Shown in pieces: positions 20,408 through 38,993 of a DNA stretch of 42,205 nt. Location: positions 1-42,205 of the IMG/VR virus record IMGVR_UViG_3300040751_000152. One strand, written 5' to 3'. Positions within the stretch are counted from its first letter, which is position 1; each line of letters opens with the position of its first letter. Below the pieces are notes generated by a model. It was not told the origin of the DNA. It did no database searches and saw only the letters and a list, made by a program, of their open reading frames with translations. This stretch comes from a virus. Position numbers and translations under genes: made by a program.

Positions 20408-20675
20408 CTTCGGAGTCTTCCTCTTCTTTTATTATTAGTTGTTTTAGGTACCATTGAGCCTTGGCAAGATCCTCGACACCGTTCTTGTAGCGGTAACGCC
20501 AGACGTACTTCAGGATGTTCCCTTGGCAGTAGTGCTTGAAACCGTCAGGACCGAGCGCCGCGTGAATAGCGTCAATGCACTCGATGCCTGCTTGGTTGTA
20601 GTGAGGTGGGTTGTTCACCATATCTTGACAGTCAGACTGTAAAGCCGCTTGTCTCATATATTCTTCATGCCGCAT
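20397..20675 (-). CDS. DUF3310 family protein
   Basis: 92 aa from ATG 20675, which is preceded by GGAG at a good distance; an earlier ATG at 20690 is in frame. The core is NPPHYNQAGIECIDAIHAAL, then YCQGNILKYVWRYRYKNGVE and DLAKAQWYLKQLI, the DUF3310 signature common in phages and sometimes annotated as a nucleotide kinase without proof. The acidic tail (EEEDSEDEQ) is unusual. It sits between exonuclease and RNR in the nucleotide and replication operon, overlapping both. Confidence 0.85.
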   Translation of the reverse strand: MRHEEYMRQAALQSDCQDMVNNPPHYNQAGIECIDAIHAALGPDGFKHYCQGNILKYVWRYRYKNGVEDLAKAQWYLKQLIIKEEEDSEDEQ

Positions 20676-23752: not shown

Positions 23753-23766
23753 CTATTCTCTCCTTC

Positions 23767-25368: not shown

Positions 25369-25390
25369 ACTTACTGCTCCCTTTGCTCTC

Positions 25391-25795
25391 CTACTCAGCC
25401 AGCCATTCATCTGGGATGGTCCGATTAGCGAACTTGAAGCCGTGTTTCTCGCACCACTGTGCATAGGTGGTCTTGGACCCCTTGTAGAGTTTGGCGTTCA
25501 TGTTGCTGAATACGAACCTGATCTCAATGTCAGGATGTTGAGTCTTCAAAAGAAGATGCTTCTGTCGCTCTTGCGGTAAGAAGCGTCCCTTTCCTTCCAC
25601 ATAAAAATACCGCCCAGAGGCGGTGATGATCTTGAAGTCAGGTGTGTACTTGGATTGTCGTTCAGGCCAGACGTAATGGATCTTCTCTCTCTCGTAGATG
25701 ACCTCTTTACCTGCCTCTTTTAGCTGTTCTGCTATCTTAATCTCTAGTCCACTCCTGTAGCCATATTTCCAAGCGGCCTTAGAAATCGAAGCCAT
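25391..25795 (-). CDS. Endonuclease I (T7 gp3-like Holliday junction resolvase)
   Basis: 134 aa from ATG 25795 (MASISKAAWKYGYRSGLE); another ATG six codons upstream is in frame. The catalytic set of T7 endonuclease I is present: E18, D53 in KYTPDF, E67 and K69 in YVEGKG. The C-terminal YKGSKTTYAQWCEKHGFKFA followed by IP.EW is also family-typical. It cleaves branched DNA before packaging and helps degrade host DNA. The start overlaps the SSB C-terminal codons by 17 bp without a clear ribosome-binding site, so it is probably coupled. Confidence 0.92.
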   Translation of the reverse strand: MASISKAAWKYGYRSGLEIKIAEQLKEAGKEVIYEREKIHYVWPERQSKYTPDFKIITASGRYFYVEGKGRFLPQERQKHLLLKTQHPDIEIRFVFSNMNAKLYKGSKTTYAQWCEKHGFKFANRTIPDEWLAE

Positions 25796-26318
25796 CGTTA
25801 TCACTAGCATCATTATCAGAGCTAGATGAAGATGCAGATGCTACATAGCCACCCTCGATAGCCTCAAAGCCTTCAGAGTCACCTCCAGTGCTTTCAGCTA
25901 ATTCGATCAGCTGGACCGCTAACAGCGTCATGCCGACACCGTAGTTAGCGCCTTTGTCGTAACTAAACACATCACCTTTGACTTTAGCGATTGTGCCGCC
26001 CCAGACTTGTGGGATGTCACCGACAATAGGATTGCCTTGGCTGTCCACGAGTTTAGGTGCGTATTTGCTTTTCATGTTGAAGATGATCTCACCAGTCGTG
26101 TCGTCCTTCTTGAACGGCAAGCGGCCCTTCTCTGCTTTCTTACCAAGCTCGTCTTTTGCAAACTCTTGGATAGACGCGATGAGGTCTTTTGCATCTTCAG
26201 GCTTCACGCTAATGCTAGTCTTGTAGACACCTTCTTCATTGAATTTAGTGTCTGGCTTATTCAACCAAGGATACTGAAGTGTTCCTTGTGATGTTTTGTA
26301 TTTCAGTTTTGATGCCAT
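25779..26318 (-). CDS. Single-stranded DNA-binding protein (T7 gp2.5-like)
   Basis: 179 aa from ATG 26318, preceded by AAGGAGAGTATCG; an upstream in-frame ATG at 26339 lacks such a site. An OB-fold-like body (LKYKTSQGTLQYPWLNKPDT, GVYKTSISV, then GEIIFNMKSKYAPKLVDSQG) ends in an acidic, Ser/Asp-rich tail whose last residue is Phe (SDNDASDNDGFDF). This is the gp2.5 arrangement in which the aromatic tail contacts polymerase and helicase. It is similar to proteins annotated DUF2815. Confidence 0.85.
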   Translation of the reverse strand: MASKLKYKTSQGTLQYPWLNKPDTKFNEEGVYKTSISVKPEDAKDLIASIQEFAKDELGKKAEKGRLPFKKDDTTGEIIFNMKSKYAPKLVDSQGNPIVGDIPQVWGGTIAKVKGDVFSYDKGANYGVGMTLLAVQLIELAESTGGDSEGFEAIEGGYVASASSSSSDNDASDNDGFDF

Positions 26319-26493
26319 CGATACTCTCCTTTTCGGCATTGTATTGTTCTTGGTAGGTGCTGTTTGGCGGCTGATCCAAGGCAGTTAGCTGGATGCCTAG
26401 CTCGTCAGCCTCTGCCAATAGATCAACAGGAACAGCCCGACCCTGCATTTCGCAAAGTCGAGCTAGTTCAAGCACCCGTTCTTTAGGGTGCAT
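26257..26493 (-). CDS. 78-aa hypothetical protein overlapping the SSB gene
   Basis: 78 aa from ATG 26493 (CAGGAGTGAAT ribosome-binding site). The N-terminal ~40 residues form a helical segment (MHPKERVLELARLCEMQGRA, VPVDLLAEADELGI). The C-terminal ~20 residues are encoded inside the SSB gene start in another frame (62-bp overlap), so this tail is overprinted. It follows the RNA polymerase stop by 23 bp. No known family recognised; a small regulator of replication or host takeover is only a guess. Confidence 0.6.
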   Translation of the reverse strand: MHPKERVLELARLCEMQGRAVPVDLLAEADELGIQLTALDQPPNSTYQEQYNAEKESIDGIKTEIQNITRNTSVSLVE

Positions 26494-26516
26494 ATTCACT
26501 CCTGTGGTTTAGTCGA

Positions 26517-29210
26517 TCATAAGAAGCAGTATTTGCTTTCCATGACCTCATTGATGTCGAGTGTTCCTTTTGCAGGAACCTCTGGGAATACTGCTTTCTC
26601 TGGCTGGTCTAGCTGGTCTTTGACTTGTTCTAGTAGCTCAGAGAAGATACAGCGATCTTCGTATTGCTCAATGAAGGCTTCACGGACAGCTTGATACATT
26701 GCTCCTGTTTCAGCAGGTGTCGTTCCAAAGCTATCATGGATCATAAAGAAGTCTGTGATCCCATACTTGTCGAAGCACTTTAGTACAGTTGCGTGAAGGT
26801 GACTCGAGTCCAACCCATGCACAAAGTTAGGCGCAATGGATGATGCACTCTTTGTCTTGTTTACCTCACGCTCATTCATGACCTCGATACTTAGCTTCTT
26901 GCGTACAAGAGGCTCGTACTTTCGGTCATGTAGGAAAACCATGACTGGTTTAACCCTATTCTTTGTGTAACGCTGGCTAATGGGAAAACCCATAGGTGTC
27001 GTCCAGCGCATTAGCTTACCTTCGTCTGAACAAAGGTTACTTAGTTTCTTTAGAAAGCCCATGCCCTCAGAGGCACTCAGGATAACGCTCGTTACAGCTG
27101 ACCAGCTTTTCTTTGCTAGATAGCCAGCCGCTTGCCATCCTTCGTCTGGACCTGTGCTTTCTCCCTCCTTGTTGAAGCCCTCGACCTCAAACGGATTATG
27201 TTCGTTGCCCTCCCAGCCTTCACCAGCCAAGACAGCATCATTGATAGGACCCATAAAGTCCTGCATGATCTGTTTCCTAAAGCCAAACATATTGGATGAA
27301 TATGAGAAGGTCATCACGTTACGCTTTAAGGTCTTGCGGCCTACTCTGAACTTGGCCCAAGCCTCGCTAATGTCGTCTGGCTTTGCTTCTTCTTTGATAG
27401 AGTCTCGCACTACAGACGCTACAGCCTCGTAGATGTCCTGTGGACGCTCTTGAGGCGTTAGGTTGACTAGGAACCCCTCTTCGGCAGACCTCAGCATACC
27501 AGCGTAATGTTGGACGCCAGAGTTCGACCCATCGAGTCCAATGGGAAACCCTGACTCGTATGTGTCGCCATAAGTGATGATGTTAGCTAACTCAAAGCAA
27601 GCCGCGAGGAATTGAAAAGGCTTGTCTGCATGGCCCCAGTAGAGCTTGTCAGGGTCATTACCTTTGAAGTGTCCTTTGAAGTCTCGAGCGATGTTGCAGA
27701 TCTTCTCTTGATTGTCCTCGACCCACTTTAGGCGCGCCTCGATTGGCTGTTTGCTGATCTTATTAAAGTCACCTAAATCTGCCAGCTTGATAGCCATCCA
27801 CAGCGTCCCTTGCTCACCTACAGGCTTCTTGTTGTGCAGTAAGAATAGAGCTTTGATGTGGTCTGCTCTGTGATGTGAGAAGCTAGGAATAGGATAGACT
27901 CGACCCCGAAAGTCCCACGAGTGAGGCAGATAGAAAGCCTTGGTTTCTAGTGTCGCTAATTCTCGGGCCAACGGTAGATCATACTTCTCCATGACCAAGC
28001 GATCTCCATCGATCTGCCTGTTCTTCTGGATGACCTTCCTTTGTTTCATTCTCCAATACTTCTGTTGCTTAGTGTCCAGAGTGTCGTAGTTATCAGGAAA
28101 GACAATATCAGCAAGATGATCTTTCCTCGGGAACTTACCAACTGAAACACCTTGTTCCCAAGCCCACTCCAGAGCCGCTAGGATTGGTGTGTTGATCTCC
28201 AGTGGTGTCGATTGGATTAGGTTAAGAGCATCCAGCATAGGTTGCATAGTACCATTCTTGATGCCGCGCTTGATGTCTTGGATCTGTTGACCTGTCGCAC
28301 CTCGGACCAGCGGCACCTGTGACGCCAATGACACCTCGTAATAACACCCAGCTGTCCTCTCGTGTGGGTTCACTGTCGTCATGTCGTCAAAGGTTTTCCA
28401 CTCGACCGGAGCGACAATCATGGGACTAAAAACCGGAGCTTGCCAGCTGGCTGACTCTTGTAGGTCAGACAATCGATCATTAGCACCTTTCTGTAGTCCT
28501 ATCCTGATTGTCTCGCGTGGTTTACCTGCTTTGTCCTTCCTGCGTTCCGTCCACTCCTCGAACAGATCTGTAGCGTGGAAGACAGCATTGTAGAGAAGAG
28601 AACCTACTTTAGCTCTTGTATCCTCGGGCCACGACTCTTTCTTATGTCCTTCCTTGGCGGCTATAGCCTTCATGGCTTTAACTCGGTACCGCATCGAGGA
28701 ATGATCCTTCTTGACCTTCTCTAAAACACGCTTTTCTAGGTCACTGTCCCGAGATCTAAGCCAGATACCCCAGTTCTCCATCTCAACGAAGCGTCCAAGG
28801 TTGACCAGTGTCTTGTTACGAGACAGGCCCATAGAGGCCGCATCCAACATCACAGACAAGGCAATGATTGATAATGTCTGTACAGGAACGTCTTGAATGT
28901 AAGGCATCCAAGTGAACTGTCGTCCTACACCTTCCAAACTCGTGTTGATCACTTTAGACAGGTAGTCCATGACCCCTGCCTGTTCATCTGTAATGATCCT
29001 GTTCCCCTCGTTCTGTGTAGACAGGTTACGAGTCTTCTCAAGCTTGTCGAGGTAACGCTGACGCCCAGCCTCTTGCATCTCAAGTTCACGCTTGAGTTCT
29101 AAAGAGTAAACATCAGTTAGTGTCGTTGTCAGTTTTAGATTACGAAGTGCATCAAAACCTTTGTTGATGCTATAGGCGTTATTATCTTGTGATGTTTCAT
29201 TTGAGAACAT
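26517..29210 (-). CDS. Single-subunit DNA-directed RNA polymerase (T7 gp1-like)
   Basis: 897 aa from ATG 29210, with GGAG nine bases upstream; an ATG at 29225 lacks a ribosome-binding site. Catalytic motifs match T7 RNAP: motif A GLDGSNSGVQHYAG (D560, T7 D537), motif B LKRNVMTFSYSSNMFGF (K629 and Y637, T7 K631/Y639) and motif C MIHDSFGTTPA (D826, T7 D812). The C-terminus is DINEVMESKYCFL, comparable to T7 ...FAFA. It should transcribe phage genes from its own promoters. A 19-bp element shared with the late-arm control region lies 46 bp upstream of the start. Confidence 0.96.
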   Translation of the reverse strand: MFSNETSQDNNAYSINKGFDALRNLKLTTTLTDVYSLELKRELEMQEAGRQRYLDKLEKTRNLSTQNEGNRIITDEQAGVMDYLSKVINTSLEGVGRQFTWMPYIQDVPVQTLSIIALSVMLDAASMGLSRNKTLVNLGRFVEMENWGIWLRSRDSDLEKRVLEKVKKDHSSMRYRVKAMKAIAAKEGHKKESWPEDTRAKVGSLLYNAVFHATDLFEEWTERRKDKAGKPRETIRIGLQKGANDRLSDLQESASWQAPVFSPMIVAPVEWKTFDDMTTVNPHERTAGCYYEVSLASQVPLVRGATGQQIQDIKRGIKNGTMQPMLDALNLIQSTPLEINTPILAALEWAWEQGVSVGKFPRKDHLADIVFPDNYDTLDTKQQKYWRMKQRKVIQKNRQIDGDRLVMEKYDLPLARELATLETKAFYLPHSWDFRGRVYPIPSFSHHRADHIKALFLLHNKKPVGEQGTLWMAIKLADLGDFNKISKQPIEARLKWVEDNQEKICNIARDFKGHFKGNDPDKLYWGHADKPFQFLAACFELANIITYGDTYESGFPIGLDGSNSGVQHYAGMLRSAEEGFLVNLTPQERPQDIYEAVASVVRDSIKEEAKPDDISEAWAKFRVGRKTLKRNVMTFSYSSNMFGFRKQIMQDFMGPINDAVLAGEGWEGNEHNPFEVEGFNKEGESTGPDEGWQAAGYLAKKSWSAVTSVILSASEGMGFLKKLSNLCSDEGKLMRWTTPMGFPISQRYTKNRVKPVMVFLHDRKYEPLVRKKLSIEVMNEREVNKTKSASSIAPNFVHGLDSSHLHATVLKCFDKYGITDFFMIHDSFGTTPAETGAMYQAVREAFIEQYEDRCIFSELLEQVKDQLDQPEKAVFPEVPAKGTLDINEVMESKYCFL

Positions 29211-29255
29211 ACTAGAACACTCCATAGACAGTCATGTGTTAGCGATAGCTGTTAG

Positions 29256-29274
29256 CTATGCAGTTACACAATTC
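29256..29274 (-). promoter_or_regulatory. Copy A of 19-bp element, leftward, upstream of RNA polymerase gene
   Basis: Read leftward the sequence is GAATTGTGTAACTGCATAG, identical to plus-strand 34103-34121. It lies in the 96-bp gap between the 49-codon gene and the RNA polymerase start and points towards the polymerase gene. A phage-RNAP promoter or a repressor operator fits best. The two copies are also 19-bp inverted repeats around 4.8 kb that include the integrase. Confidence 0.55.
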
Positions 29275-29306
29275 CAAGTTACTGATTTACTTAGATAATG
29301 AGATGT

Positions 29307-29456
29307 CTATGAAGTGACTAAATTGTGGGTATTCTGGCTAATACAAAGGCCCATGAAGCCGTAGTTTACACGGGTTGTCTCTGGTTCGACTCGGTTTCCA
29401 AGAAGCAGACGCACAAGATAGCGCGACCACTTAAATAGCTTGTTAAACTCCATCAT
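29307..29456 (-). CDS. 49-aa small basic protein between integrase and RNA polymerase
   Basis: A 49-aa ORF found in the gap: MMEFNKLFKWSRYLVRLLLG, then NRVEPETTRVNYGFMGLCIS, ending QNTHNLVTS. It has an excellent ribosome-binding site (AAAGGAGTAAAA before ATGATG at 29456). The first 20 residues form an amphipathic, Arg/Lys-rich helix. It is alone between the integrase stop and the 19-bp element. Unrecognised; small phage proteins placed before the RNA polymerase are often host-takeover factors, but that is inference. Confidence 0.6.
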   Translation of the reverse strand: MMEFNKLFKWSRYLVRLLLGNRVEPETTRVNYGFMGLCISQNTHNLVTS

Positions 29457-29504
29457 TTTTACTCCTTTGTATCAGACCACATTCTCCCTTGATGTGGTTT
29501 AGTG

Positions 29505-29510
29505 ATTATA
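29505..29510 (-). promoter_or_regulatory. Possible -10 box of a leftward host-type promoter
   Basis: TATAAT reads leftward here (context CTATATAATCAC), 49 bp before the ATG of the 49-codon gene and just after the integrase stop. No good -35 lies 16-18 bp upstream, so it would be a weak or activated promoter. It could give host-RNAP expression of the small gene and the RNA polymerase separately from the lysogeny operon. Confidence 0.3.
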
Positions 29511-29528
29511 TAGAACAAAACAAGAACA

Positions 29529-30398
29529 CTAGGCGTGTTTCATTTGCCTTGCAACCTCTTTCATAGTCGCTGTCTTAATCTTGATGTACTTGGCTGTCGT
29601 AGCGGTGTCGCGGTGTCCCAGCATCAAAGCTATAACTGCCGAATTTAGATTTAGATCGTTTGCCATCTTTGTGGCGGCAGTATGTCTAAAGACATGAAAG
29701 ACGAACTCTTTGTCTCTCGGTGCCACCTTCTCTCTTACGCTGTTCCAAGTGTTGTAAAAAGCCTTTTGTGCCGTAGCCCAGTTAAAGGCTGATAGAGAAT
29801 GTCTATTAAGCGCCCGTAGACGCTCACAGGCGGCCCTTGAGTCTTCGTTAAGGGGAACATACCTCGGATCCCCGTTCTTCGTCTCCTTGAGCCATATCCA
29901 GTGAAATCCATCATCATCGATCTCTAACTCTGCCTCGCCCGTGATGACCTTCACAACCTCACCAAGTCTCATTCCGGTATTTAGAGACAGGGTAGCCATG
30001 TCAGCCATCCAAGGCGTATCGCTAGAGCGTAGGAGCCTGATGATCTTGTCTACCTCGATGTCGCTGAAGATCCTCATACGGTGTCGGTCTTCCTTGTAAA
30101 GCTCGGCCCTCAGTGGTCTTGTGATTAGCTCATCCTGATATGCAGCCTTGAAGACCGCACTCACGGCAACAAGGTGTCGGTTAGCTGTCGCCTCGCTCAG
30201 TCCTTTGGCTGTGACAAGGTGGTCCATGTAGACATGCAGATCATTACGCTTGAACTCGTGCAGTCCCATGCCGCCGTAGCCTCGGAACTCAGCGAACTTG
30301 TGACACCGAGACAAAGCCTCGCCTCGGTGTTTGTCGCTTGATTTACGCCAGATGGTCGCCTGATTGTCGCGCAGGAACTCGTTGAATGTTGGCCTCAT
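29529..30398 (-). CDS. int: Tyrosine-family integrase
   Basis: 289 aa from ATG 30398 (GAGGAGTAACGCT ribosome-binding site); the longer open frame upstream overlaps another gene and is not protein-like. It has an N-terminal SAM-like core-binding domain (HEFKRNDLHVYMDHLVTAKG, ANRHLVAVSAVFKAAYQDEL) and a catalytic domain with all active residues: R144 in TGMRLGE, K171, H235-x-x-R238 in HVFRHT, H262 in LGHRD and nucleophile Y271. It indicates a temperate life cycle. Its start overlaps the upstream gene stop as ATGA. No exact attP could be shown; a tRNA-like element at 33668-33754 is a candidate. Confidence 0.93.
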   Translation of the reverse strand: MRPTFNEFLRDNQATIWRKSSDKHRGEALSRCHKFAEFRGYGGMGLHEFKRNDLHVYMDHLVTAKGLSEATANRHLVAVSAVFKAAYQDELITRPLRAELYKEDRHRMRIFSDIEVDKIIRLLRSSDTPWMADMATLSLNTGMRLGEVVKVITGEAELEIDDDGFHWIWLKETKNGDPRYVPLNEDSRAACERLRALNRHSLSAFNWATAQKAFYNTWNSVREKVAPRDKEFVFHVFRHTAATKMANDLNLNSAVIALMLGHRDTATTAKYIKIKTATMKEVARQMKHA

Positions 30399-30814
30399 AG
30401 CGTTACTCCTCTTTTCTCGATGTAAGACAACAACGCTTGCCGCGCCTCGCGTCCGTTCAAACCTCGCAGACCCAGACTCTCGATGTTGTAAATGGTCATG
30501 CATTGTTTCTTGTGGAACCTCGGCACCCTGATGTGGAACCATGACAACCCAAGGCGCAGACCTATGTAGTGACGACTCCATGTCAGGCCGTAGATCTTCC
30601 GTTGCCCCCATTTGTAAATATGCTTTGAATAGTGGAACAAAGACCAGCGGCCTAGCTTCACGGTGCCATGTTCAACCTCGGTGTAGTTGTCCATATAGTC
30701 TGGCTGGTGATAGTAATAGACAGGCTCTAGTGTCGCCTCGTGTGTCGCACCCTCGTGCTGATTGATTGCAGATAGATACTTTTGCACCTTCACGCTCGGT
30801 TGTAGATGTTGCAT
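30395..30814 (-). CDS. 139-aa aromatic-rich hypothetical protein coupled to integrase
   Basis: 139 aa from ATG 30814, with a near-perfect ribosome-binding site (AGGAGGTTTGGG). Rich in Tyr, His, Trp and Arg: MQHLQPSVKVQKYLSAINQH, EPVYYYHQPDYMDNYTEVEH, SRHYIGLRLGLSWFHIRVPR, with a helical C-terminus (GLNGREARQALLSYIEKRG). It overlaps the integrase start by ATGA, so the two are made together. Directionality factor or regulator are possible roles, but no HTH is evident. Confidence 0.65.
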   Translation of the reverse strand: MQHLQPSVKVQKYLSAINQHEGATHEATLEPVYYYHQPDYMDNYTEVEHGTVKLGRWSLFHYSKHIYKWGQRKIYGLTWSRHYIGLRLGLSWFHIRVPRFHKKQCMTIYNIESLGLRGLNGREARQALLSYIEKRGVTL

Positions 30815-30825
30815 CCCAAACCTCC

Positions 30826-31008
30826 TCAAAACAGTGGCACATGACAGAACCCACTCGCCCAAAGGTCTTGGAGTCTGTCGAGTTGTAACTTGAGTGTCGC
30901 GCAGTCCTGCCCGTTCCACTCCATGTCACTGATGATCTCGCGTAGTCGCTTGACCTCGCTCTGGATGTTGAGCAGGTGCGTGTCGGTCTTAATTGGATCA
31001 ATGTACAT
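30826..31008 (-). CDS. 60-aa hypothetical protein with coiled coil
   Basis: 60 aa from ATG 31008 (GAGGAGGCTCACC ribosome-binding site): MYIDPIKTDTHLLNIQSEVK, then RLREIISDMEWNGQDCATLK and LQLDRLQDLWASGF. A heptad-like leucine pattern suggests a dimeric coiled coil. It starts inside the end of the 142-aa gene upstream (11-bp overlap). Function unknown. Confidence 0.65.
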   Translation of the reverse strand: MYIDPIKTDTHLLNIQSEVKRLREIISDMEWNGQDCATLKLQLDRLQDLWASGFCHVPLF

Positions 31009-31426
31009 GGTGAGCCTCCTCAGATGTGTCGCCCTCGCCTCGCCAGTTGTAGGACACAGAGACCCGATCAGGGGTGTAACGCTCATGCACTAAGCCAGCG
31101 ATCATCAGCATCCTTTTGTGCATCTCGCTATTCATCGTGACCCATTCTGTGATGACCTTGACGGTCACATGACCATGCTCACATTGCTCAACCCAAACAG
31201 ATGGGAAATACCTACCAATGTCAGAGTCGTCATGCCACATGGGGTCGGTCTCTACATCCCAAGACATCCCAAGCCCTTTAGGCAGACAAGCCTTGGTGTC
31301 GGCTCCACGTCCCATGATGGCTGATATCTCCATTACAAGGTCAATAGCCTCGGGTGTGATGCTGTTTAATGTGTAGTTTTCCATATCGATCTTGATATCT
31401 TCTGATGACGTGTTTTCTGAAGTCAT
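30998..31426 (-). CDS. 142-aa hypothetical protein
   Basis: 142 aa, acidic: an N-terminal tail rich in Ser/Glu, then NYTLNSITPEAIDLVMEISA, SWDVETDPMWHDDSDIGRYF, HGHVTVKVITEWVTMNSEMH and a His-rich end (EGDTSEEAHHVH). No family recognised. Start overlaps the upstream stop as ATGA, with GGAGACGACACA before the ATG. Part of the coupled leftward array. Confidence 0.65.
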   Translation of the reverse strand: MTSENTSSEDIKIDMENYTLNSITPEAIDLVMEISAIMGRGADTKACLPKGLGMSWDVETDPMWHDDSDIGRYFPSVWVEQCEHGHVTVKVITEWVTMNSEMHKRMLMIAGLVHERYTPDRVSVSYNWRGEGDTSEEAHHVH

Positions 31427-31632
31427 TGTGTCGTCTCCTCATTATCATATGTTTTAGGTGTCGCGGTCTTACAGTGTTGGACCCATGCGTCAGCAAGTGT
31501 CGCCATGCGGCGTAGCTCAGACCGTGCGAAGTCTCGCGCCTCGTGTGAGTCGCCATCAGTTACGATAGCCAGCATCGAGGGAAGCAAAGCCTCCCAAGAT
31601 GGCGTCAGATTGATTGTTTTTGGCTGTGTCAT
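31423..31632 (-). CDS. 69-aa hypothetical protein
   Basis: 69 aa from ATG 31632 (AGGAGG ten bases upstream); a TTG two codons earlier has tighter spacing and could be used. Helical: MTQPKTINLTPSWEALLPSM, then LAIVTDGDSHEARDFARSEL and RRMATLADAWVQHCKTATP. Overlaps its neighbours as ATGA downstream and TAATG upstream. No motif recognised. Confidence 0.65.
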   Translation of the reverse strand: MTQPKTINLTPSWEALLPSMLAIVTDGDSHEARDFARSELRRMATLADAWVQHCKTATPKTYDNEETTQ

Positions 31633-32009
31633 TAGCAATATACCTCCTCACCAAACAAACCCAGTTGAACGATATAGTCGTAGTCATTGGCATCCAGCTG
31701 GCCTATGTCAGTCATGGCTTGCTGTTTGCGCGTGTCGTCTAGCCTGTCGATGCCGTGGTAAATGATGTCGAAAGCAAACCCAGCAAACCAGCTGTCAGTC
31801 TCGCCCTCCTCATGTAGCGTCACAGGAAAGTTACCAGACACAACCGACTGCCCGTCTTTGAGGTCCCAGCGGTTGTGGTCGTAGATGATTTCATCGCACC
31901 ATCCCAGACTGCCAGACTCGATAAAGCCTACCCATACAGCCTCGCATATCTCGGCCCAGCCAGCGGCGTCAGGGCTGTAGACGGTGGTGATCTTTGGTAG
32001 TTCTTTCAT
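31632..32009 (-). CDS. 125-aa hypothetical protein
   Basis: 125 aa, acidic and aromatic: MKELPKITTVYSPDAAGWAE, IIYDHNRWDLKDGQSVVSGN, FAFDIIYHGIDRLDDTRKQQ, DYDYIVQLGLFGEEVYC. Ribosome-binding site AGAGGAGCTTGAGCA. The negative charge is striking and might suggest DNA mimicry, but no homologue is recognised. It overlaps the next gene by one base (TAATG). Confidence 0.65.
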   Translation of the reverse strand: MKELPKITTVYSPDAAGWAEICEAVWVGFIESGSLGWCDEIIYDHNRWDLKDGQSVVSGNFPVTLHEEGETDSWFAGFAFDIIYHGIDRLDDTRKQQAMTDIGQLDANDYDYIVQLGLFGEEVYC

Positions 32010-32012
32010 TGC

Positions 32013-32246
32013 TCAAGCTCCTCTTTCTAGTGTCGGCGTAGCGTCCCACTCGGACCGCTTCATGCGCCATTTGATGTTGGTGATAGGTGTGCAGAGCCGC
32101 ACCCATTTGCGGCCCACGACAGCCCAGACCAACCGACAGCCGCAGACAGGCCACCGCACGTTGTATAGGTCGGCCCTGTACAGCCTCGCGGTGCGCCATG
32201 TGGCCTCGGGTGGTCGTGGGGTTTTCATGCGTTTGCGTCTGGTCAT
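32013..32246 (-). CDS. 77-aa basic Trp/Arg-rich hypothetical protein
   Basis: 77 aa, strongly basic: MTRRKRMKTPRPPEATWRTA, then RLYRADLYNVRWPVCGCRLV and WAVVGRKWVRLCTPITNIKW. Contains CGC and a further Cys. Ribosome-binding site GAGGGCTAGAG, 3 bp after the upstream stop. A nucleic-acid-binding role is suggested by charge only. Confidence 0.6.
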   Translation of the reverse strand: MTRRKRMKTPRPPEATWRTARLYRADLYNVRWPVCGCRLVWAVVGRKWVRLCTPITNIKWRMKRSEWDATPTLERGA

Positions 32247-32248
32247 CT

Positions 32249-32416
32249 CTAGCCCTCTAAGGTCGCGTGGATTAGTGGCGTGAAGAATATGACCAAGCCC
32301 AACACGGCAAAGCCCAGCGGAAAGAATATGCCCAGCTGAAAGCCCGTGATTGCATCCACCACAGCGGCAATCATCATGATCAGGCCAATGGTCATCAATA
32401 GAATGTCGTTAAACAT
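32249..32416 (-). CDS. 55-aa two-TM membrane protein
   Basis: A 55-aa ORF read from the gap: MFNDILLMTIGLIMMIAAVV, then DAITGFQLGIFFPLGFAVLG and LVIFFTPLIHATLEG. Two hydrophobic helices joined by a short turn. It has GGGGAGTGGTGAGC before the ATG, 2 bp separating it from both neighbours, and no other plausible frame. In a lysogeny module such proteins can act in superinfection exclusion; here this is inference. Confidence 0.7.
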   Translation of the reverse strand: MFNDILLMTIGLIMMIAAVVDAITGFQLGIFFPLGFAVLGLVIFFTPLIHATLEG

Positions 32417-32418
32417 GC

Positions 32419-32730
32419 TCACCACTCCCCATCGCGTACAGGTCTACGGTCAGAAGCTCTAAAGGCCCAATCAGCGGCAAGCTCCTCGCTAAAGACGTTC
32501 ATGATCTCAGCAAGTTGCTCCGGCAGGGTGTCGCGGTGGATGTGTCGCGCTAGGTCCTTGTCACAATAGAGTGTCGTGCCATCAGCAAGAGACGCATAGG
32601 CGCACCACTTGCCACCTTCGTTCGACACATGCCAACGGTGGTCGATCCTGTGGCCTTGCCCACGGTCAACAGACACTGCAAGCAAGCCTTGTGATGATGT
32701 GAAAACCTTGATTTGATCAGCTGTAATCAT
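32419..32730 (-). CDS. 103-aa hypothetical protein
   Basis: 103 aa from ATG 32730 (AGGGGGTGCGTC). Sequence: MITADQIKVFTSSQGLLAVS, HRIDHRWHVSNEGGKWCAYA, DGTTLYCDKDLARHIHRDTL, ending FRASDRRPVRDGEW. Mixed alpha/beta, neutral to basic. Its start overlaps the 42-codon gene as ATGA. No family recognised. Confidence 0.65.
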   Translation of the reverse strand: MITADQIKVFTSSQGLLAVSVDRGQGHRIDHRWHVSNEGGKWCAYASLADGTTLYCDKDLARHIHRDTLPEQLAEIMNVFSEELAADWAFRASDRRPVRDGEW

Positions 32731-32855
32731 GACGCACCCCCTAGCTTTACCATCAGCGCCCAATAGGTGTACTCAGGCCCCCAGATGCCTAGCCACGGCA
32801 AGGTCGCCGCGACTAGGAACAAGGTGGCAAGGATGTTCTGAATGATGCTTTTCAT
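32727..32855 (-). CDS. 42-aa single-TM or exported peptide
   Basis: A 42-aa ORF read from the gap: MKSIIQNILATLFLVAATLP, then WLGIWGPEYTYWALMVKLGG and AS. One hydrophobic N-terminal segment after a Lys, like a membrane anchor or signal peptide. Ribosome-binding site GAGGAGTGCATAATC, and an ATGA overlap with the next gene. Function unknown. Confidence 0.6.
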   Translation of the reverse strand: MKSIIQNILATLFLVAATLPWLGIWGPEYTYWALMVKLGGAS

Positions 32856-32857
32856 GA

Positions 32858-33373
32858 TTATGCACTCCTCGCCAGCCACTCTTTGCGGTCTTGGTCGATA
32901 CGCTCACGCTCGGCACGCTGCATCTGATCCCACTGGTAATCATCAAATGACCAATCGATCCGTGCTGGCTTGGTGCCGCACTTAGCCATAAGACGCGCCG
33001 CCTCTGCCATGATGCCCTTGATTACCCAATAGGCATCAGTCGAGGCCCAGTCGTTGACCTCACAACTCTGGTATTCAAGACAACAACACATGTTGTAAAT
33101 GTCAGCTGGTGACAGACTGCGGTTTTGCGCCCTGTCAGCTGTGGTCATGCACTCAGCTACAAAGTCACCTCGGCACATGCTGTCGTCAGCGCCATAACGT
33201 GCAACCACGCTGTCGAGGTTTGCTTGCGCTAATATGGCTGTCACTTGCTTGCGTGTGGTGATGTCGATCACATGGTTCTGTGATGCGTTGTAGAAATAAG
33301 CCCTACGGTTTGGCTGTGTAGCCCAGTCAGCAAGGTTTGTGATGTGTTCTGGTGATACTAAATAAGCACTCAT
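32858..33373 (-). CDS. 171-aa hypothetical protein
   Basis: 171 aa, helical and Cys-containing: MSAYLVSPEHITNLADWATQ, AYFYNASQNHVIDITTRKQV, DIYNMCCCLEYQSCEVNDWA, and a charged C-terminus (MQRAERERIDQDRKEWLARS). Clear ribosome-binding site (CTAGGAGGGCGAGACA). The CCC cluster plus nearby Cys could bind metal. I recall similar proteins of unknown function in other phages but cannot name the family. Confidence 0.65.
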   Translation of the reverse strand: MSAYLVSPEHITNLADWATQPNRRAYFYNASQNHVIDITTRKQVTAILAQANLDSVVARYGADDSMCRGDFVAECMTTADRAQNRSLSPADIYNMCCCLEYQSCEVNDWASTDAYWVIKGIMAEAARLMAKCGTKPARIDWSFDDYQWDQMQRAERERIDQDRKEWLARSA

Positions 33374-33385
33374 TGTCTCGCCCTC

Positions 33386-33634
33386 CTAGTAACAAAAGCC
33401 GACATAAACAACGGTGCCAGCCTTCAGGAAAAGCTCGCGGTTCATGTCTGTATCGAGTGAGAGTGAGTATTCAGCGCCCCGAGCCTTGGTGGCGCGGTTA
33501 CGGTGGTTGATGTGCCACACTTGCTTTGCATCAGGCTTGCGCTTGATTGGTTCGCCAGCCTTGGCGGCTTGCTCAAGTGTCACAGCGTAGACGGTATCGC
33601 CGTCAATGGTGATGATTGGATCTACTTGGTTCAT
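33386..33634 (-). CDS. 82-aa hypothetical protein, first gene of the leftward array
   Basis: 82 aa: MNQVDPIITIDGDTVYAVTL, EQAAKAGEPIKRKPDAKQVW, HINHRNRATKARGAEYSLSL, ending VYVGFCY. A basic middle and beta-like ends. Ribosome-binding site ATAGGAGACCAAAGCG. It is the gene nearest to the control region and so would be expressed first from a leftward promoter, the usual place for a regulator, but no HTH is visible. Confidence 0.65.
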   Translation of the reverse strand: MNQVDPIITIDGDTVYAVTLEQAAKAGEPIKRKPDAKQVWHINHRNRATKARGAEYSLSLDTDMNRELFLKAGTVVYVGFCY

Positions 33635-33667
33635 CGCTTTGGTCTCCTATGTTGCGACATTGTGTCG

Positions 33668-33754
33668 CTAGAAGACCTGCGGATTAGTTCGGGGTAATTC
33701 GAGAACCCCCAACCTGCTGATTAGAAGTCAGCTGCTCTACCGCAGGAAATCTAG
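33668..33754 (-). other. tRNA-Arg(TCT)-like cruciform, possible attachment site or tRNA remnant
   Basis: Read leftward: outer arms CTAGA and a 7-bp stem CCTGCGG/CCGCAGG (33740-33746 with 33676-33682) enclose TAGAGCA, then a perfect anticodon arm GCTGA-CTTCTAA-TCAGC (anticodon TCT), then AGGTTG and a T-arm-like hairpin GGGGT-TCTCGAATT-ACCCC. The D arm is replaced by a short linker, the T loop has nine bases, and eight extra bases precede the closing stem, so it is not a normal tRNA. The anticodon matches the phage tRNA at 18122. It may be a decayed tRNA, a tRNA-derived attP or a structured leader RNA. Confidence 0.5.
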
Positions 33755-33763
33755 CTATCATTG

Positions 33764-33792
33764 AGTCTGGACTTGTGATTCACATATGTCAA
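33764..33792 (-). promoter_or_regulatory. Candidate leftward sigma70 promoter for the lysogeny array
   Basis: Leftward TTGACA (33787-33792, perfect -35) is followed after 17 bp by CAGACT (33764-33769), a poor -10 with three of six consensus bases. It faces the 33634 gene, about 130 bp away, and would transcribe through the tRNA-like element. Weak -10 boxes are common where an activator or repressor acts. Confidence 0.3.
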
Positions 33793-33813
33793 CAACTAAA
33801 TGCACAATATAGG

Positions 33814-33822
33814 ACACAATTC
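33814..33822 (-). promoter_or_regulatory. Partial third copy of the 19-bp element
   Basis: Leftward GAATTGTGT is identical to the first nine bases of the 19-bp element, then diverges (CCTATATTG). It lies about 20 bp upstream of the leftward TTGACA box, facing the lysogeny array. With copies A and B, all three sit before a transcription unit in the matching orientation. A nine-base match alone could be chance. Confidence 0.3.
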
Positions 33823-34102
33823 TGCATCAGACTGCATTAGCAAACAATCGACCCCTAAAAGCACCTCTCACGCTGTTCAACATGCTCTCAATCGCTCTAG
33901 GATCGCTCAGGACGGGCTTTAGCTTTCAGGGCTACTAATGTACCTTTATAGAGTCCCTGCGGCTCTACAGGCCTTCAAAAGGGTGTAGGACTGCCATGGC
34001 CTTATGTCAGGGCCTAAACCACTAAAGAGCCTACGACAGCCCTACATAGGTTATGTAAGCACGATATAAGCGTGAATCAAGTGGATCATGTTGAAGATTA
34101 GT

Positions 34103-34121
34103 GAATTGTGTAACTGCATAG
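34103..34121 (+). promoter_or_regulatory. Copy B of 19-bp element, rightward, upstream of the late arm
   Basis: GAATTGTGTAACTGCATAG on the plus strand is an exact match to leftward 29274-29256. It lies about 515 bp upstream of the first late gene (34638) and points towards it. Two exact 19-mers in front of the RNA polymerase gene and the late arm, in matching orientation, are what promoters for the phage polymerase would look like. An operator or a recombination site is an alternative. Confidence 0.55.
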
Positions 34122-34186
34122 ATAGACCGGAACGGATCAAGAGAAGAACACAGGTGATCATGTGATGACTTAGGTTGTCTTGGATT

Positions 34187-34230
34187 GTTCCTCATCATGT
34201 CTATTCATTAAGAGCATAAACATGAGGAAC
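34187..34230. repeat. Inverted repeat, 9-bp stem
   Basis: GTTCCTCAT (34187-34195) and ATGAGGAAC (34222-34230) are perfect complements separated by 26 bases, directly before the 35-bp-phased direct repeats. There is no T-run, so a protein-binding or cruciform role is more likely than termination. Confidence 0.6.
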
Positions 34231-34510
34231 ATAGGACAACATTAGATAACCTTGAATGAGATGACATAAGACAACATGAGATAACCTTGGTTGAGTCAGG
34301 TTTGTCTTGGGTGTTTGTTGTCTTCCTATTCAATCCCGATTTCTTCAAAAGACAAATGTCCCCCATCCGCTTAATTATCACATGACGACAAATGTCTGGC
34401 GTTAATGTCTCCGGTTCTGCCATGAGATCCGTCTGAGCCTGCATCAGACAACCCAAGATATCATTAGTTATCAGTAGTTTACCCCGGTCGCCGTGCGTTT
34501 CGGGTCCCAT
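34208..34510 (-). CDS. Doubtful 100-aa ORF inside the control region
   Basis: An open frame from ATG 34510: MGPETHGDRGKLLITNDILG, CLMQAQTDLMAEPETLTPDI, CRHVIIKRMGDICLLKKSGL. The middle reads like a real protein. However, there is no ribosome-binding site, the C-terminal third is read through the repeat cluster and is Ser/Cys-rich, and it would lie antisense to the late leader. A TTG start at 34558 extends it. Possibly a small regulator, more likely chance. Confidence 0.25.
   Translation of the reverse strand: MGPETHGDRGKLLITNDILGCLMQAQTDLMAEPETLTPDICRHVIIKRMGDICLLKKSGLNRKTTNTQDKPDSTKVISCCLMSSHSRLSNVVLCSSCLCS
34229..34295 (+). repeat. Two imperfect 32-bp direct repeats, period 35 bp
   Basis: 34229-34260 and 34264-34295 share ACATA.GACAACAT.AGATAACCTTG..TGAG with about four mismatches. 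They form the core of the GACAA iteron cluster and lie between the 19-bp element and the first late gene. Confidence 0.75.
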
Positions 34511-34577
34511 GCTGGCGATTTCAGGGCCCCCGTGGTGTCGCTGATCGATCAATTCCAAAAAGCCGCTAAAGGTTGCT

Positions 34578-34592
34578 GTTGTTGTTGTTGTT
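34578..34592 (+). repeat. (GTT)5 microsatellite in the late leader
   Basis: Five GTT units follow GTTGCT, about 45 bp upstream of the late-arm start codon at 34638. Slippage here could alter leader length, but no coding frame is affected. Confidence 0.8.
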
Positions 34593-34637
34593 ACAGACCT
34601 TTTTAAGCAGAGACCTATTTACAGAGGAACATAAGAT

Positions 34638-35516
34638 ATGGCCTTAGAAACAGCCACCTACATCAACGGACTGGTGGCAACGAACCCAGTCTCAACGGAT
34701 GGCTTGGCCCAAGCTGATGACCACATGAGACTCATCAAGTCTACCATCCTCACCACATTCCCTGACATCACAGGTGAAGTCTCAAGTACCCATACTGAAT
34801 TAAACATAGTGGATGGAGATACCACAGCCACCTCGACCACCCTAGTTGACGCTGATCGCTTTGTTGTCAATGACGATGGTACCATGGTCCAAGTCGCCAT
34901 GAGTGACCTAGCGACCTACATGGACACCAAGATCACCACAATCAACGGTCTCACCTACCCTACAGCCGATGGCAACTCAGGAGACGCCTTGGTCACGGAT
35001 GGTGCAGGAACTTTGTCTTTCTCTCCTATTACGAGCTTCATCTCTGGCATGGTCATGCCTTACGCAGGTTCTACAGCCCCTACAGACTGGTTGTTCTGTT
35101 ATGGACAAGCAATTAGCAGAACGACTTACAGTGGTCTATTTACAGCTATTGGGACCACATACGGCGCAGGTGACGGTGTAAACACGTTTAACTTACCTGA
35201 CCTAAGAGGCCGTGTAGTCGCTGGTAAAGATGACATGGGCGGCACCAGCGCAGGCCGTTTGACTAACCAATCTGGTGGTCTGGACGGTGATACGCTGGGT
35301 GCTACAGGTGGCGCAGAGACACACACGCTAACTACATCTGAGATGCCATCACACACGCATAGTGTATCTTCTGGCGGTAGCAATCCTTCAAACTACGGAC
35401 TGGGTGGTACATCAGGTTCATTTTCTGCAACACAAACAACAGGCTCTACAGGCGGCGGTGATGCACATAACAACATACAGCCGACTATTGTCCTAAACTA
35501 CATCATCAAGACATAA
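34638..35516 (+). CDS. Tail fibre with collar domain
   Basis: 292 aa. The N-terminal half is a fibre shaft (MALETATYINGLVATNPVST, DGLAQADDHMRLIKSTILTT) with the module TYPTADGNSGDALVTDGAGT also seen in the 10639 gene. The C-terminal half is a phage tail collar domain: VMPYAGSTAPTDWLFCYGQA, TFNLPDLRGRVVAGKDDMGG, SEMPSHTHS, ending NIQPTIVLNYIIKT. It opens the late arm, with AGAGGAACATAAGAT before the ATG. Probable host-contact protein. Confidence 0.82.
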   Translation: MALETATYINGLVATNPVSTDGLAQADDHMRLIKSTILTTFPDITGEVSSTHTELNIVDGDTTATSTTLVDADRFVVNDDGTMVQVAMSDLATYMDTKITTINGLTYPTADGNSGDALVTDGAGTLSFSPITSFISGMVMPYAGSTAPTDWLFCYGQAISRTTYSGLFTAIGTTYGAGDGVNTFNLPDLRGRVVAGKDDMGGTSAGRLTNQSGGLDGDTLGATGGAETHTLTTSEMPSHTHSVSSGGSNPSNYGLGGTSGSFSATQTTGSTGGGDAHNNIQPTIVLNYIIKT

Positions 35517-35535
35517 GAGAAGAAGGCGTCAGTAT

Positions 35536-37149
35536 ATGCCAATACTACCGATCAAGGATCTAGGTAACGTAGGGGTAATTGCTGACACTGCCGCTTACAA
35601 CCTACCACCTAATGCTTTCAACTACGGTTTCAATGTTAGGTTTGATGAAGGAAAAGTATCAAGAGCGCCTGTCTTTAGAAACATCAAGGACACTCTAGGT
35701 TTCTCTCCACGGTTTGCCTATGGCATCGTACCTTCCAATGGTTTTGATACAGTTGTTATGGTATCCGATGACTGGTCAATCAACGAGTACGCTTCAGGAA
35801 CAGTTAGTAACGTATCTGGTACCATAACTGGAACAACAGACCCCCGTCCCTTCACAGGAACATCTCTAGCGGATGTACACTACATTAACCGTGGTGACAG
35901 GGTGCCAGTATACAGGGACAATGTGTCCTCTAACTTTGCTGACTTACCCAACTGGGACAGCACATGGCGCTGTGTGTCTTTGAAGTCCTTTGGCGACTTC
36001 ATGCTTGGTCTCAATATGACCGAAGGTTCAACCAACTACGCCACCCGTGTACGCTGGAGTAACATCGTTACAGCTAATACCTACCCAGATTCATGGGATG
36101 AGACAGACACCACTAAGTCAGCTGGTTTCAATGATCTAGTACAGATTGGTACAGAGATTGTGGATGGTGCAACACTAGGTACTAACTTTGTCATCTACGC
36201 TTATGACCAAGTGTGGCTTATGGAGTTCGTAGGCGGTACGTTTGTATTTAACTTTCGTAAGCTGTTTACTGATGCAGGTATCATCAATCAAAACTGTGTA
36301 GTTGAAGTAGAAGGTAAGCACTACGTCTTTGGTCCCTTCGATATGTATGTACACGATGGTACATCCAAGCAATCTATCTGTGACGAGCGAGTGAAGAACT
36401 TTGTCTACTCTACGCTAAATAACTCAGCATCAGACAGGTTCTTTGTACAACACAACCAATCACTCAATGAAATCTATTTCTGTTATCAATCAGGAGATCA
36501 GTTCTGTGAGTTTCCTAGCGCAGACAGATGCAACAGAGCCGCTGTCTATAACTACAGGAACGACACATGGTCCTTCATGGATCTACCTAACGTCAGTAGT
36601 GGTACACAAGCTAACATCAACTCAGTGACGACCTATGCTACCAGTTCGACTACCTACACACTCACAGGTGGTACCTACTACTCTCAGCAAGACAGCTACC
36701 AAAGACACACATTGATGGTAGGTGAGACACTGACAGCAGACGGTATTACCTCAGACAAGCTATATGCCTTAGACCTGTCAGACACAGGTACCATAGCTTT
36801 CCAGTTAGATACCGAGGCTACTAAGTACCCTTACCTAGAACGTACAGGCATAGACTTAGATGAGAATGGGTTAGCCGCTAGGCAGTATGTGGTTGTCACC
36901 CGTCTGTATCCACAGGCAGACACTATTAACTCAGCTGACACCACCATGACGTTTGAGTTTGGTGCGTCAGACATCCCAAGAACCACGCCTACCTACGCCT
37001 CAGCAGTCACCTTCGATATAGCTACCGATCATAAGATCGACTCACGGGCGGCAGGTAGATATCTCTCTTACCGGATGACACTGACCGATAACAAAGACTT
37101 TGAGTTATCTGGGTTTGACTTGGAGATCACACCAACTGGAGCAAGATAA
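35536..37149 (+). CDS. Tail/stabilisation structural protein (T7 tubular B or P22 gp10-like position)
   Basis: 537 aa, beta-rich: MPILPIKDLGNVGVIADTAA, AFNYGFNVRFDEGKVSRAPV, then repeated blades such as VVEVEGKHYVFGPFDMYVHD and AAVYNYRNDTWSFMDLPNV. The blade-like YNYRNDTWS and DMYVHDG segments are typical of podovirus nozzle or stabilisation proteins that extend the portal. The role is inferred from fold-like features and from the location between fibre and ejection genes. Confidence 0.65.
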   Translation: MPILPIKDLGNVGVIADTAAYNLPPNAFNYGFNVRFDEGKVSRAPVFRNIKDTLGFSPRFAYGIVPSNGFDTVVMVSDDWSINEYASGTVSNVSGTITGTTDPRPFTGTSLADVHYINRGDRVPVYRDNVSSNFADLPNWDSTWRCVSLKSFGDFMLGLNMTEGSTNYATRVRWSNIVTANTYPDSWDETDTTKSAGFNDLVQIGTEIVDGATLGTNFVIYAYDQVWLMEFVGGTFVFNFRKLFTDAGIINQNCVVEVEGKHYVFGPFDMYVHDGTSKQSICDERVKNFVYSTLNNSASDRFFVQHNQSLNEIYFCYQSGDQFCEFPSADRCNRAAVYNYRNDTWSFMDLPNVSSGTQANINSVTTYATSSTTYTLTGGTYYSQQDSYQRHTLMVGETLTADGITSDKLYALDLSDTGTIAFQLDTEATKYPYLERTGIDLDENGLAARQYVVVTRLYPQADTINSADTTMTFEFGASDIPRTTPTYASAVTFDIATDHKIDSRAAGRYLSYRMTLTDNKDFELSGFDLEITPTGAR

Positions 37150-37152
37150 GAC

Positions 37153-37431
37153 ATGGCACTTAACGATAAGACTAATGTCTTGATCCAGACATACACCAGA
37201 GAACAATATCCAGTATTGCAAGAAGGTGTCAGGAGATACATCCAAGATGAGCTAAGGCGAATAGAGACTTCTATTAGGTCTCTCGCCACTGCTTCTATTC
37301 AGGTTGCAGAAGATGAACCGGAGAACCCCGTCAAGGGCATGGTCAGGTATGCTGTGTCTCCATGGGACCCACTAGGCACCAGCTTTGAGGGTCTGGTTGT
37401 CTATAACGGTACGTCATGGGTAGCGGTGTAA
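37153..37431 (+). CDS. 92-aa minor structural protein
   Basis: 92 aa: a helical N-terminal half (VLIQTYTREQYPVLQEGVRR, YIQDELRRIETSIRSLATAS) followed by a small beta tip (GMVRYAVSPWDPLGTSFEGL, VVYNGTSWVAV). The YNGTSW end is common in short phage tail or fibre proteins. It starts 3 bp after the previous gene. A trimeric tail spike or needle component is plausible. Confidence 0.6.
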   Translation: MALNDKTNVLIQTYTREQYPVLQEGVRRYIQDELRRIETSIRSLATASIQVAEDEPENPVKGMVRYAVSPWDPLGTSFEGLVVYNGTSWVAV

Positions 37432-37435
37432 CATC

Positions 37436-37945
37436 ATGTCAAATCTAATGTTAAGGACAGCAGTCTATAGCTACGAGGAGAAACTTAAAGAGGCTATAGA
37501 ACAAGGCGAAATAGAAGATGCTTTAGATCAATGTCCGGTAACTCATCATTTTGCTGAGTATCTCGAGGACTACAATGCAGGTGTCTATGCTCGAGAAATG
37601 TTTATACCTAAAGGCATTACAGTAGTGGGTAAGATACATAAGTATTCTCACTTATCATTCTTGTTAAAAGGCAAGCTCATTGTTGTGTCTGAGCATACCG
37701 ACAGAATAGTCATGGAGGCTCCGCATACGTTTGAGTCACCAGCTGGAGCTAAGAGAGCTTTCTACGCAGTAGAGGACTCTATACTAACTAACGTGCATAT
37801 CACCAGAAAACCTAAAGAAGATGCTCTTGATGCTATTGAGCAAGAGGTGATTGCTAAATCATACACAGAACTAGGAATGGAAGAACCAGATCCTCGTTTA
37901 TTCAAAGAAGAATTGGAGACTATAGCATGGCATGGGGTGCAGTAG
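37436..37945 (+). CDS. Cupin-like protein, 169 aa
   Basis: 169 aa. The middle (REMFIPKGITVVGKIHKYSH, LSFLLKGKLIVVSEHTDRIV, ESPAGAKRAFYAVEDSILTN) has the strand and turn order of a small cupin barrel, including His residues at IHKYSH and a late VHIT. Flanks are acidic helices. Such proteins occur in structural modules of some phages without known activity. It overlaps the next gene by 19 bp. Confidence 0.6.
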   Translation: MSNLMLRTAVYSYEEKLKEAIEQGEIEDALDQCPVTHHFAEYLEDYNAGVYAREMFIPKGITVVGKIHKYSHLSFLLKGKLIVVSEHTDRIVMEAPHTFESPAGAKRAFYAVEDSILTNVHITRKPKEDALDAIEQEVIAKSYTELGMEEPDPRLFKEELETIAWHGVQ

Positions 37946-38988
37946 CAGGGGCAGTCATTGGCGCTTATGGAGCGAACCAAGCCGCAAAGAAACAAGCAAA
38001 CGCAATGGATGCCGCAAACCAGATGTCCAACATGGGCTACTTAGACGCACAGCCTTACATTCAAGGTCTCTACAGCCAAGGTAAGAACGTCCTAAACGAT
38101 CAGCTTGCGGCTGGGTATTACCAAGGCCCTACCCTTGCTCGGTTAAACAATATACAGACCGATGCTCTTAGTAGGCAATACAACTTTGGTAACACTGGTT
38201 ACGGATACGGCGCTGATATAGCCAGAACTAGCTCAGGTTTCTCAGGTAACTATGCTGACTTATACAACCGCGCTAACAACAGTGCAGCTATGTCTGATGC
38301 TATTAACTACTCTACAAGCAACAGCCGCCCATTGATCGATGCCGCTATGCGTGGTGCTAATCGTCAGTTAAACGAGGTTAGCTTACAGAACCTGAACAAC
38401 GCGGCGTCTAGCTCAGGTAACACAAGAAGCTCAAGAGCAGGTACAGCTGAAGCTATCTTGCGTAGAGGTGTTGCAGAGCAGGAAGCTGATGTAACAGCGG
38501 AAATCAATGATCAACTCATGAACAGATCGTTGAACCAGTCCAACACCGACTTTGCTAACGCTATGAACGCTAATTCTGGTTTAGCTACTGGCTTTGGTAC
38601 AGGTATGAACACCGCCTTTACATCTTTGAATAACTCAATCAACGCTGGTGGTGCCTTCCAGAAAGACCTACAGAACCAATACAACGATAACCGCCAGTTC
38701 TTCGAGGGTAATCGAGATTACGACATGAATACTCTTGGAAACTACGCCAACGCTATTCTTGGTCGTGCGCCAACCCAAGGCAAGAACTATCAAGCTAACC
38801 TAGTAGACCCGACTATGGCGGCTCTAGGTGGAGCGCAGATGGGCTTTGGTCTCTACAACAAGTTCTTCCCTAACGGGTTTAACTTTGGCGGTAATAGCAA
38901 CCCAGCGGCCTTTGCATCACAAGCTCCTGCACAACAGTACATCAATGCCCCAGCATTTCAGGGTATGGGCTATATGAGTGGAAAATAG
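37927..38988 (+). CDS. Ejection/DNA-transfer protein 1
   Basis: 353 aa, beginning MAWGAVAGAVIGAYGANQAA, a glycine/alanine hydrophobic start typical of podovirus internal virion proteins (P22 gp7-like, T7 gp14-like). The rest is Asn/Ala/Gln-rich and helical (SLQNLNNAASSSGNTRSSRA). It is the first of three ejection-type genes before the terminase genes. It probably forms part of the channel that crosses the outer membrane. Confidence 0.7.
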   Translation: MAWGAVAGAVIGAYGANQAAKKQANAMDAANQMSNMGYLDAQPYIQGLYSQGKNVLNDQLAAGYYQGPTLARLNNIQTDALSRQYNFGNTGYGYGADIARTSSGFSGNYADLYNRANNSAAMSDAINYSTSNSRPLIDAAMRGANRQLNEVSLQNLNNAASSSGNTRSSRAGTAEAILRRGVAEQEADVTAEINDQLMNRSLNQSNTDFANAMNANSGLATGFGTGMNTAFTSLNNSINAGGAFQKDLQNQYNDNRQFFEGNRDYDMNTLGNYANAILGRAPTQGKNYQANLVDPTMAALGGAQMGFGLYNKFFPNGFNFGGNSNPAAFASQAPAQQYINAPAFQGMGYMSGK

Positions 38989-38993
38989 ATAAC

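Follow-up and report, generated by a model that had tools for sequence, protein, structure and literature searches.

Introduction

The 42,205-nucleotide virus record IMGVR_UViG_3300040751_000152 of IMG/VR, taken over its whole length (positions 1 to 42,205, hereafter the window), encodes a single-subunit RNA polymerase (RNAP) of the T7 type, and an exact 19-bp element, GAATTGTGTAACTGCATAG, stands both before the RNAP gene and, on the other strand, before the late genes. The question raised by this locus is whether the 19-mer serves the phage's own RNAP as its promoter or is a repeat of another kind. Judged by its position, orientation, layout and relatives, the 19-mer is very probably such a promoter, spanning -18 to +1, and the proposal of a first-pass annotation that it is an undescribed promoter of the encoded RNAP is thereby supported.

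Occurrence of the 19-mer

The copies that the first-pass annotation had reported before the RNAP gene and before the late arm were located at 29274-29256 (-) and 34103-34121 (+), both in non-coding DNA. The pair is real, exact and not a product of chance (expectation of 0.01 matches per shuffle; two matches in 0 of 100 shuffles), and identity between the copies reaches 22 nt with one mismatch. No further site with three mismatches or fewer was found in the window. Copy A ends 31 nt ahead of the annotated ATG of the RNAP gene (29225), although this gene more likely begins at the ATG at 29210, which is preceded by GGAG. Copy B stands at the head of the rightward arm, with the first gene 514 nt downstream. 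The pair has the form expected of a T7-type phage promoter, a repeated, directional, non-coding element of about 18-23 bp before phage transcription units. The sites are as follows.

29256-29274 (-): copy A, predicted phage RNAP promoter (-18 to +1) for the RNAP and replication genes, with the predicted +1 near 29256
34103-34121 (+): copy B, predicted phage RNAP promoter for the late arm, with the predicted +1 near 34121
29307-29325 (-): CAATTTAGTCACTTCATAG, with five mismatches, which may be a weak third site in tandem with copy A on its upstream side

The third site lies on the same strand as copy A and 51 bp upstream of it, and a site as good was obtained in 6 of 300 shuffles of the intergenic region, which is no more than suggestive of a further promoter copy. 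It was missed by the first-pass annotation, in which a nine-base partial copy, GAATTGTGT, facing the lysogeny array was reported. That copy is present at 33814-33822, but it was rejected as being at chance level (0.45 expected per shuffle, with mismatching adjoining bases), and the third site is the better one. A site at 4746 (-) with four mismatches was rejected as antisense within a late gene.

Anatomy of the predicted promoter

The last G of the 19-mer was taken as +1, and the true start would be at this G or within 1-2 nt of it. In this register the element reads A-17 A-16 T-15 T-14, C-7 and A-3 T-2 A-1 G+1, and the layout of a T7-type promoter was found, with an AT-rich part at -17 to -13, a specificity core, a TATA-like part at -4 to -1 and G at +1. 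The earlier remark that T7 promoters are not visible therefore holds for the T7 sequence proper, but the 19-mer itself has the anatomy of the T7 group. Compared in fixed register, it agrees with the K11 and SP6 promoters at 11 of 18 positions each (about 0.1% of the 18-mers of the window score so high), with the T7 and T3 promoters at 8 of 18 each, with the KP34 promoter at 7 of 18 and with the element of the cultured Roseobacter phage CRP-125, AATTAGGTTGCACCATAG, at 12 of 18, the K11, SP6 and T3 sequences being used as generally known. The predicted leaders are about 31-46 nt from copy A to the RNAP gene and about 515 nt from copy B to the collar gene.

Conservation in uncultured relatives

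Relatives were collected by RNAP-based scans (19, later 80 loci), and most of them carry a repeat of about 20 nt at 20-250 nt before the RNAP gene and again just after it. The alignment of 70 copies from 35 relatives gave a consensus of roughly ACTTNTGTCCACC(T/C)(T/A)TAGA. This alignment rests on repeated elements selected by curation, which replaced the output of an unsupervised motif search that had also caught integrase codons of the form TATGTCCACG. At a score of 16 or more, the repeat was found upstream of RNAP in 29 of 55 dereplicated relatives, as against 14 of 402 random control windows from the same contigs (3.5%). The partner copies were on the RNAP strand in 29 of 29 cases, 22 of them directly after RNAP (within 400 nt). 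Sixteen large relative genomes were compared: in 12 the element before RNAP is found again elsewhere, and in 9 of these 12 a copy precedes the collar gene by 450-1040 nt. In an independent set of 30 contigs, found via a late protein and not via RNAP, the region before the collar gene scored above 14 on the gene strand in 12 contigs and never above 11.2 on the opposite strand.

The closest full RNAP relative (G024, IMGVR_UViG_3300029448_000272; about 50% identical) is arranged in divergent arms as well, and its own element occurs exactly twice in 29.6 kb, as ATTTGTGTCCACCCTAAGCG at 24 nt before RNAP and, on the other strand, as ATTTGTGTCCACCCTTAACG at 454 nt before the collar gene; the corresponding distances in the window are 28 and 514 nt, respectively. 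Another relative, G029, is likewise divergent and carries a pair. A promoter copy was also seen in G029 (L319) at 8238-8259 (-), close to the integrase gene but in antisense orientation and directed at the late arm, by which the phage RNAP could silence the integrase. Contig L162 is 86% identical to the window over 33,873-33,972, and TTTTGTGTCCACCTCTTAGA is found in it near the position that corresponds to copy B. Within this block, CTACTAATGTACCTTTATAGAG at 33931-33955 of the window resembles the promoter family of the relatives but is kept only in part in L162. The 99% identical contig L003 holds only the C-terminal third of RNAP and is therefore without both promoter regions, and the relatives found as prophages in bacteria were set aside as too distant (33% or less).

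Covariation of promoter core and specificity loop

The polymerase features used for this comparison are as follows.

26517-29225 (-): single-subunit RNAP of 902 aa (PF00940, E = 3e-90), likely start at ATG 29210
26883-26969 (-): specificity loop of the RNAP, residues 753-781

The enzyme has a second domain match (PF14700, 1e-9), its catalytic motifs A, B and C are conserved and intact, and it is about 29% identical to the T7-group enzymes; an intact single-subunit RNAP is thus encoded by this genome. In the 19-mer the outer parts of the family are kept, and AACTG stands where nearly all relatives have a C-rich core. The loop was compared at T7 residues N748, R756 and Q758, whose roles we take as commonly understood. 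At the N748 position the window has M762, G024 has K and most marine relatives have K or R; at the Q758 position the window has K777, whereas Q is found in G024 and in all relatives with a TGTCCAC core; R756 is kept, the register of these residues being uncertain because the loop alignment to T7 contains an insertion.

Covariation was determined by a partial Mantel test on 45 RNAP-promoter pairs with 5000 permutations. The distance between promoter cores was correlated with the distance between loops, given the rest of RNAP, with a partial r of 0.22, a value reached in 0 of 5000 permutations, and the reverse partial was 0.05. Core similarity tracks loop similarity beyond the overall similarity of RNAP.

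Weight of evidence and alternative explanations

Several results weigh against the assignment of the 19-mer as the promoter of this RNAP. The exact 19-mer has no occurrence in other viral contigs, and only 29 of the 55 relatives reach the repeat score given above. No promoter was seen right after RNAP (26340-26516), where most relatives have one. The core of the window has A, T and G at three positions where 83-98% of the relatives' copies have C, so that the window copies do not rank near the top genome-wide with the curated, relatives-only matrix, in which they score 5.1 and 3.6. Moreover, when 50 stretches of RNAP were ranked by their correlation with the promoter core, the loop came second and the stretch near T7 392 onward came first, and the loop is therefore not the sole correlate of the core. 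With the uncurated matrix the window copies were 4th and 9th of 84,368, some of the training sites being integrase codons; the top window hits of the curated matrix were mostly coding and were taken as chance. As to the conservation by which the first-pass annotation wished its proposal to be judged, the element is kept at homologous gene positions and in layout, but the exact sequence is not shared, and the core has diverged together with the specificity loop.

The first-pass annotation had left promoter and operator side by side. As an operator, the 19-mer would be bound at both copies by a phage repressor or activator controlling the RNAP and late genes in lysogeny; the copies do flank the integrase region and precede both lytic arms, and a 6-bp dyad, ATAGCTAACAGCTAT (29246-29260), overlaps the predicted +1 of copy A and might itself be an operator. 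However, the 19-mer itself is without a dyad, the dyad of copy A is missing at copy B and one as good is found in about 5% of random windows, the copies always aim into genes and also sit after RNAP in relatives, and among the ten open reading frames (ORFs) tested in the array upstream of the integrase gene no Pfam match over cut-off and no regulator domain was found. An operator is the less likely of the two and is very improbable in absolute terms.

Host promoters of the sigma-70 type, duplicated before both arms, would recall the host promoter just upstream of the RNAP gene in T7, but are very unlikely here. In the scan of 29100-34700 no convincing host promoter was found, the single weak site was on neither copy (shuffles averaged 6.1 sites), and the sequence of the element varies among relatives along with the specificity loop. 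Hardly better placed is a repeat that marks a module boundary or serves recombination, or an origin of replication, in each case without promoter activity. The copies do stand at boundaries of gene modules, and T7-group promoters also prime replication, but such a repeat would not keep the spacing of the T7 group, the gene-sense orientation and the covariation of the core with RNAP; none of the three is predicted by a pure operator or boundary repeat, and both are disfavoured for this reason. The least credible of all is inversion by the integrase of the segment 29256-34121, which holds the integrase gene and is bounded by the two inverted copies. Inverted repeats are not conserved as such at the segment ends: in relatives with all genes on one strand the homologous copies run in the same direction (29 of 29 on the RNAP strand) and often stand around RNAP only. 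Moreover, the likely attachment site is a tRNA-Arg-like stretch at 33703-33739.

Gene layout of the window

29529-30611 (-): tyrosine integrase, encoded on the RNAP strand and upstream of RNAP
30395-33634 (-): array of small unknown ORFs upstream of the integrase
18500-26339 (-): replication module downstream of RNAP, with gp2.5-like single-stranded DNA-binding protein, primase-helicase, DNA polymerase, exonuclease and ribonucleotide reductase
34122-34637 (+): leader of about 515 nt from copy B to the first late gene, of similar length in relatives
34638-40610 (+): start of the late arm, with collar protein, virion proteins, ejection protein and transglycosylase
2-18047 (+): remainder of the late arm across the contig joint, with internal virion protein, terminase, portal, scaffold, capsid and tail fibres

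The leftward arm runs from 33,634 to 18,500 through the small ORFs, integrase, RNAP and replication genes. The contig ends (1-732 and 41474-42205) overlap by 732 bp at 94% identity, and their joining gives an uninterrupted late-protein frame of 1,284 aa, from which the late arm is taken to run rightward without a break from 34,638 round to 18,047. Probably, therefore, the genome is circular or has terminal redundancy, and the record was assembled from mixed strains. As far as can be read from the DNA, it consists of two divergent arms with one strong predicted phage promoter each.

The structural module is not of the T7 type (portal of phrog_1216 and virion protein of phrog_3287, at 5242-7275 and 35536-37149), and the combination of T7-like RNAP and replication genes with a non-T7 structural module is a mosaic common to many marine contigs. 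For the portal, the match to phrog_1216 is far better than that to phrog_332, the family of head-tail adaptors. With its divergent arms and this portal, the genome lacks the one-strand T7-like order and T7-type structural module of the Autographiviridae (ICTV).

The likely attachment site at 33703-33739 (18122-18198 being listed with it) resembles the middle of a tRNA-Arg (TCT) gene over 35-37 bp, 35 bp of it are identical in otherwise diverged relatives, and the phage itself carries a tRNA-Arg(TCT) gene. In the leader, a block just before the collar gene (34550-34615) is strongly conserved; in 16 or more relatives it has a run of GTTGTTGTTGTTGTT that does not vary, flanked by AAAGGT-like and ACCTTT-like sequence, and no structure was predicted for this block by RNAalifold on the alignment tried.

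Proposed mechanism

Most probably, host polymerase would transcribe the leftward early array and so give the first RNAP. This RNAP would then fire copy A, by which more RNAP and the replication genes would be made in a positive feedback, and copy B, by which the late structural arm would be transcribed. Positive autoregulation by the copy before RNAP had been suggested in the first-pass annotation, and this reading is well supported by position, orientation, layout and relatives; recognition by this RNAP and the start site are likewise predicted. A precedent is LUZ100, a temperate-like relative of T7, in which a phage promoter immediately before RNAP was mapped and a feedback loop was proposed that a MarR-like protein keeps switched off (PMC10134795); we infer autoregulation here by analogy with it. 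Copy A would in the same way be a phage promoter next to RNAP, on its upstream side, in a phage that has an integrase. Among the ten array ORFs there was no MarR match in Pfam, and both the first expression by host polymerase and an off switch that would hold RNAP back in lysogeny are presumed.

Significance

Promoters of single-subunit phage RNAPs are well known, and the 19-mer would be a further one with an undescribed sequence; no described promoters were found for this phage group in literature searches. Two features are less usual: each arm of a divergent genome has a single promoter, and the two promoters have shifted jointly with the specificity loop. Tentatively, and with rather less than even confidence, we suggest an uncultured marine temperate phage lineage which runs its whole lytic programme from only two back-to-back RNAP promoters in a divergent genome, one of them autocatalytic, and in which the RNAP has here changed at two loop positions (aligned with T7 N748 and Q758) and both promoter cores have changed along with it, as a natural case of an RNAP and all its promoters moving to a new specificity. 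A concrete RNAP-promoter pair is provided for this phage group, together with 45 natural pairs with core-loop covariation, by which the rules of promoter choice become testable and from which parts that are likely orthogonal may be drawn.

Comparison with known systems

With the T7 group the element shares the 18-nt span, AATT at -17 to -14 (as in T3 and K11), C at -7 and ATAG at -3 to +1 (as in T7, K11 and SP6), and the promoter copy directly after RNAP in relatives corresponds to phi1.1A of T7, located 26 nt after the RNAP gene. It differs in its core at -13 to -4, which is unlike all of them, in the lack of a GGG start, and in having two strong copies instead of many, on divergent arms and with none directly after RNAP. 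The promoters of Syn5, ATTGGGCACCCGTAA (PMC3950665), and KP34, TAATGTTACAGGAGTA (PMC6834552), likewise belong to divergent single-subunit phage RNAPs, but their cores differ from that of this element; the CACCC of Syn5 is similar to the core of the relatives.

In the cultured Roseobacter phages CRP-125 and CRP-113, AATTAGGTTGCACCATAG or a near-identical repeat, and in CRP-227 and CRP-361, AATTAGGTTGCACCTAAG, are found on both sides of RNAP, the copy ahead of it at a distance of about 40-60 nt, with AATTAGGTTGCACC(A/T)(T/A)AG or nearly so as the common form, while CRP-804 has a different repeat around RNAP. These promoter-like repeats carry no promoter annotation in the records (L327-L331). The placement before RNAP is shared with the window, whereas the CRP phages have at least four copies of the element and no division of their genes between the strands.

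In LUZ100, eight phage promoters are set out in a T7-like order and there is a MarR-like regulator, as against two predicted promoters, divergent arms and no regulator recognised in the window. Common to both are the temperate-like character, the T7-type RNAP, the integrase upstream, the phage promoter next to and upstream of RNAP, mapped in LUZ100 and predicted here, and the proposed positive feedback. Together with LUZ100, the window supports the idea that integrase-bearing T7-like phages commonly place RNAP under its own promoter, an arrangement that would constitute a bistable switch and bear on the lysis-lysogeny decision.

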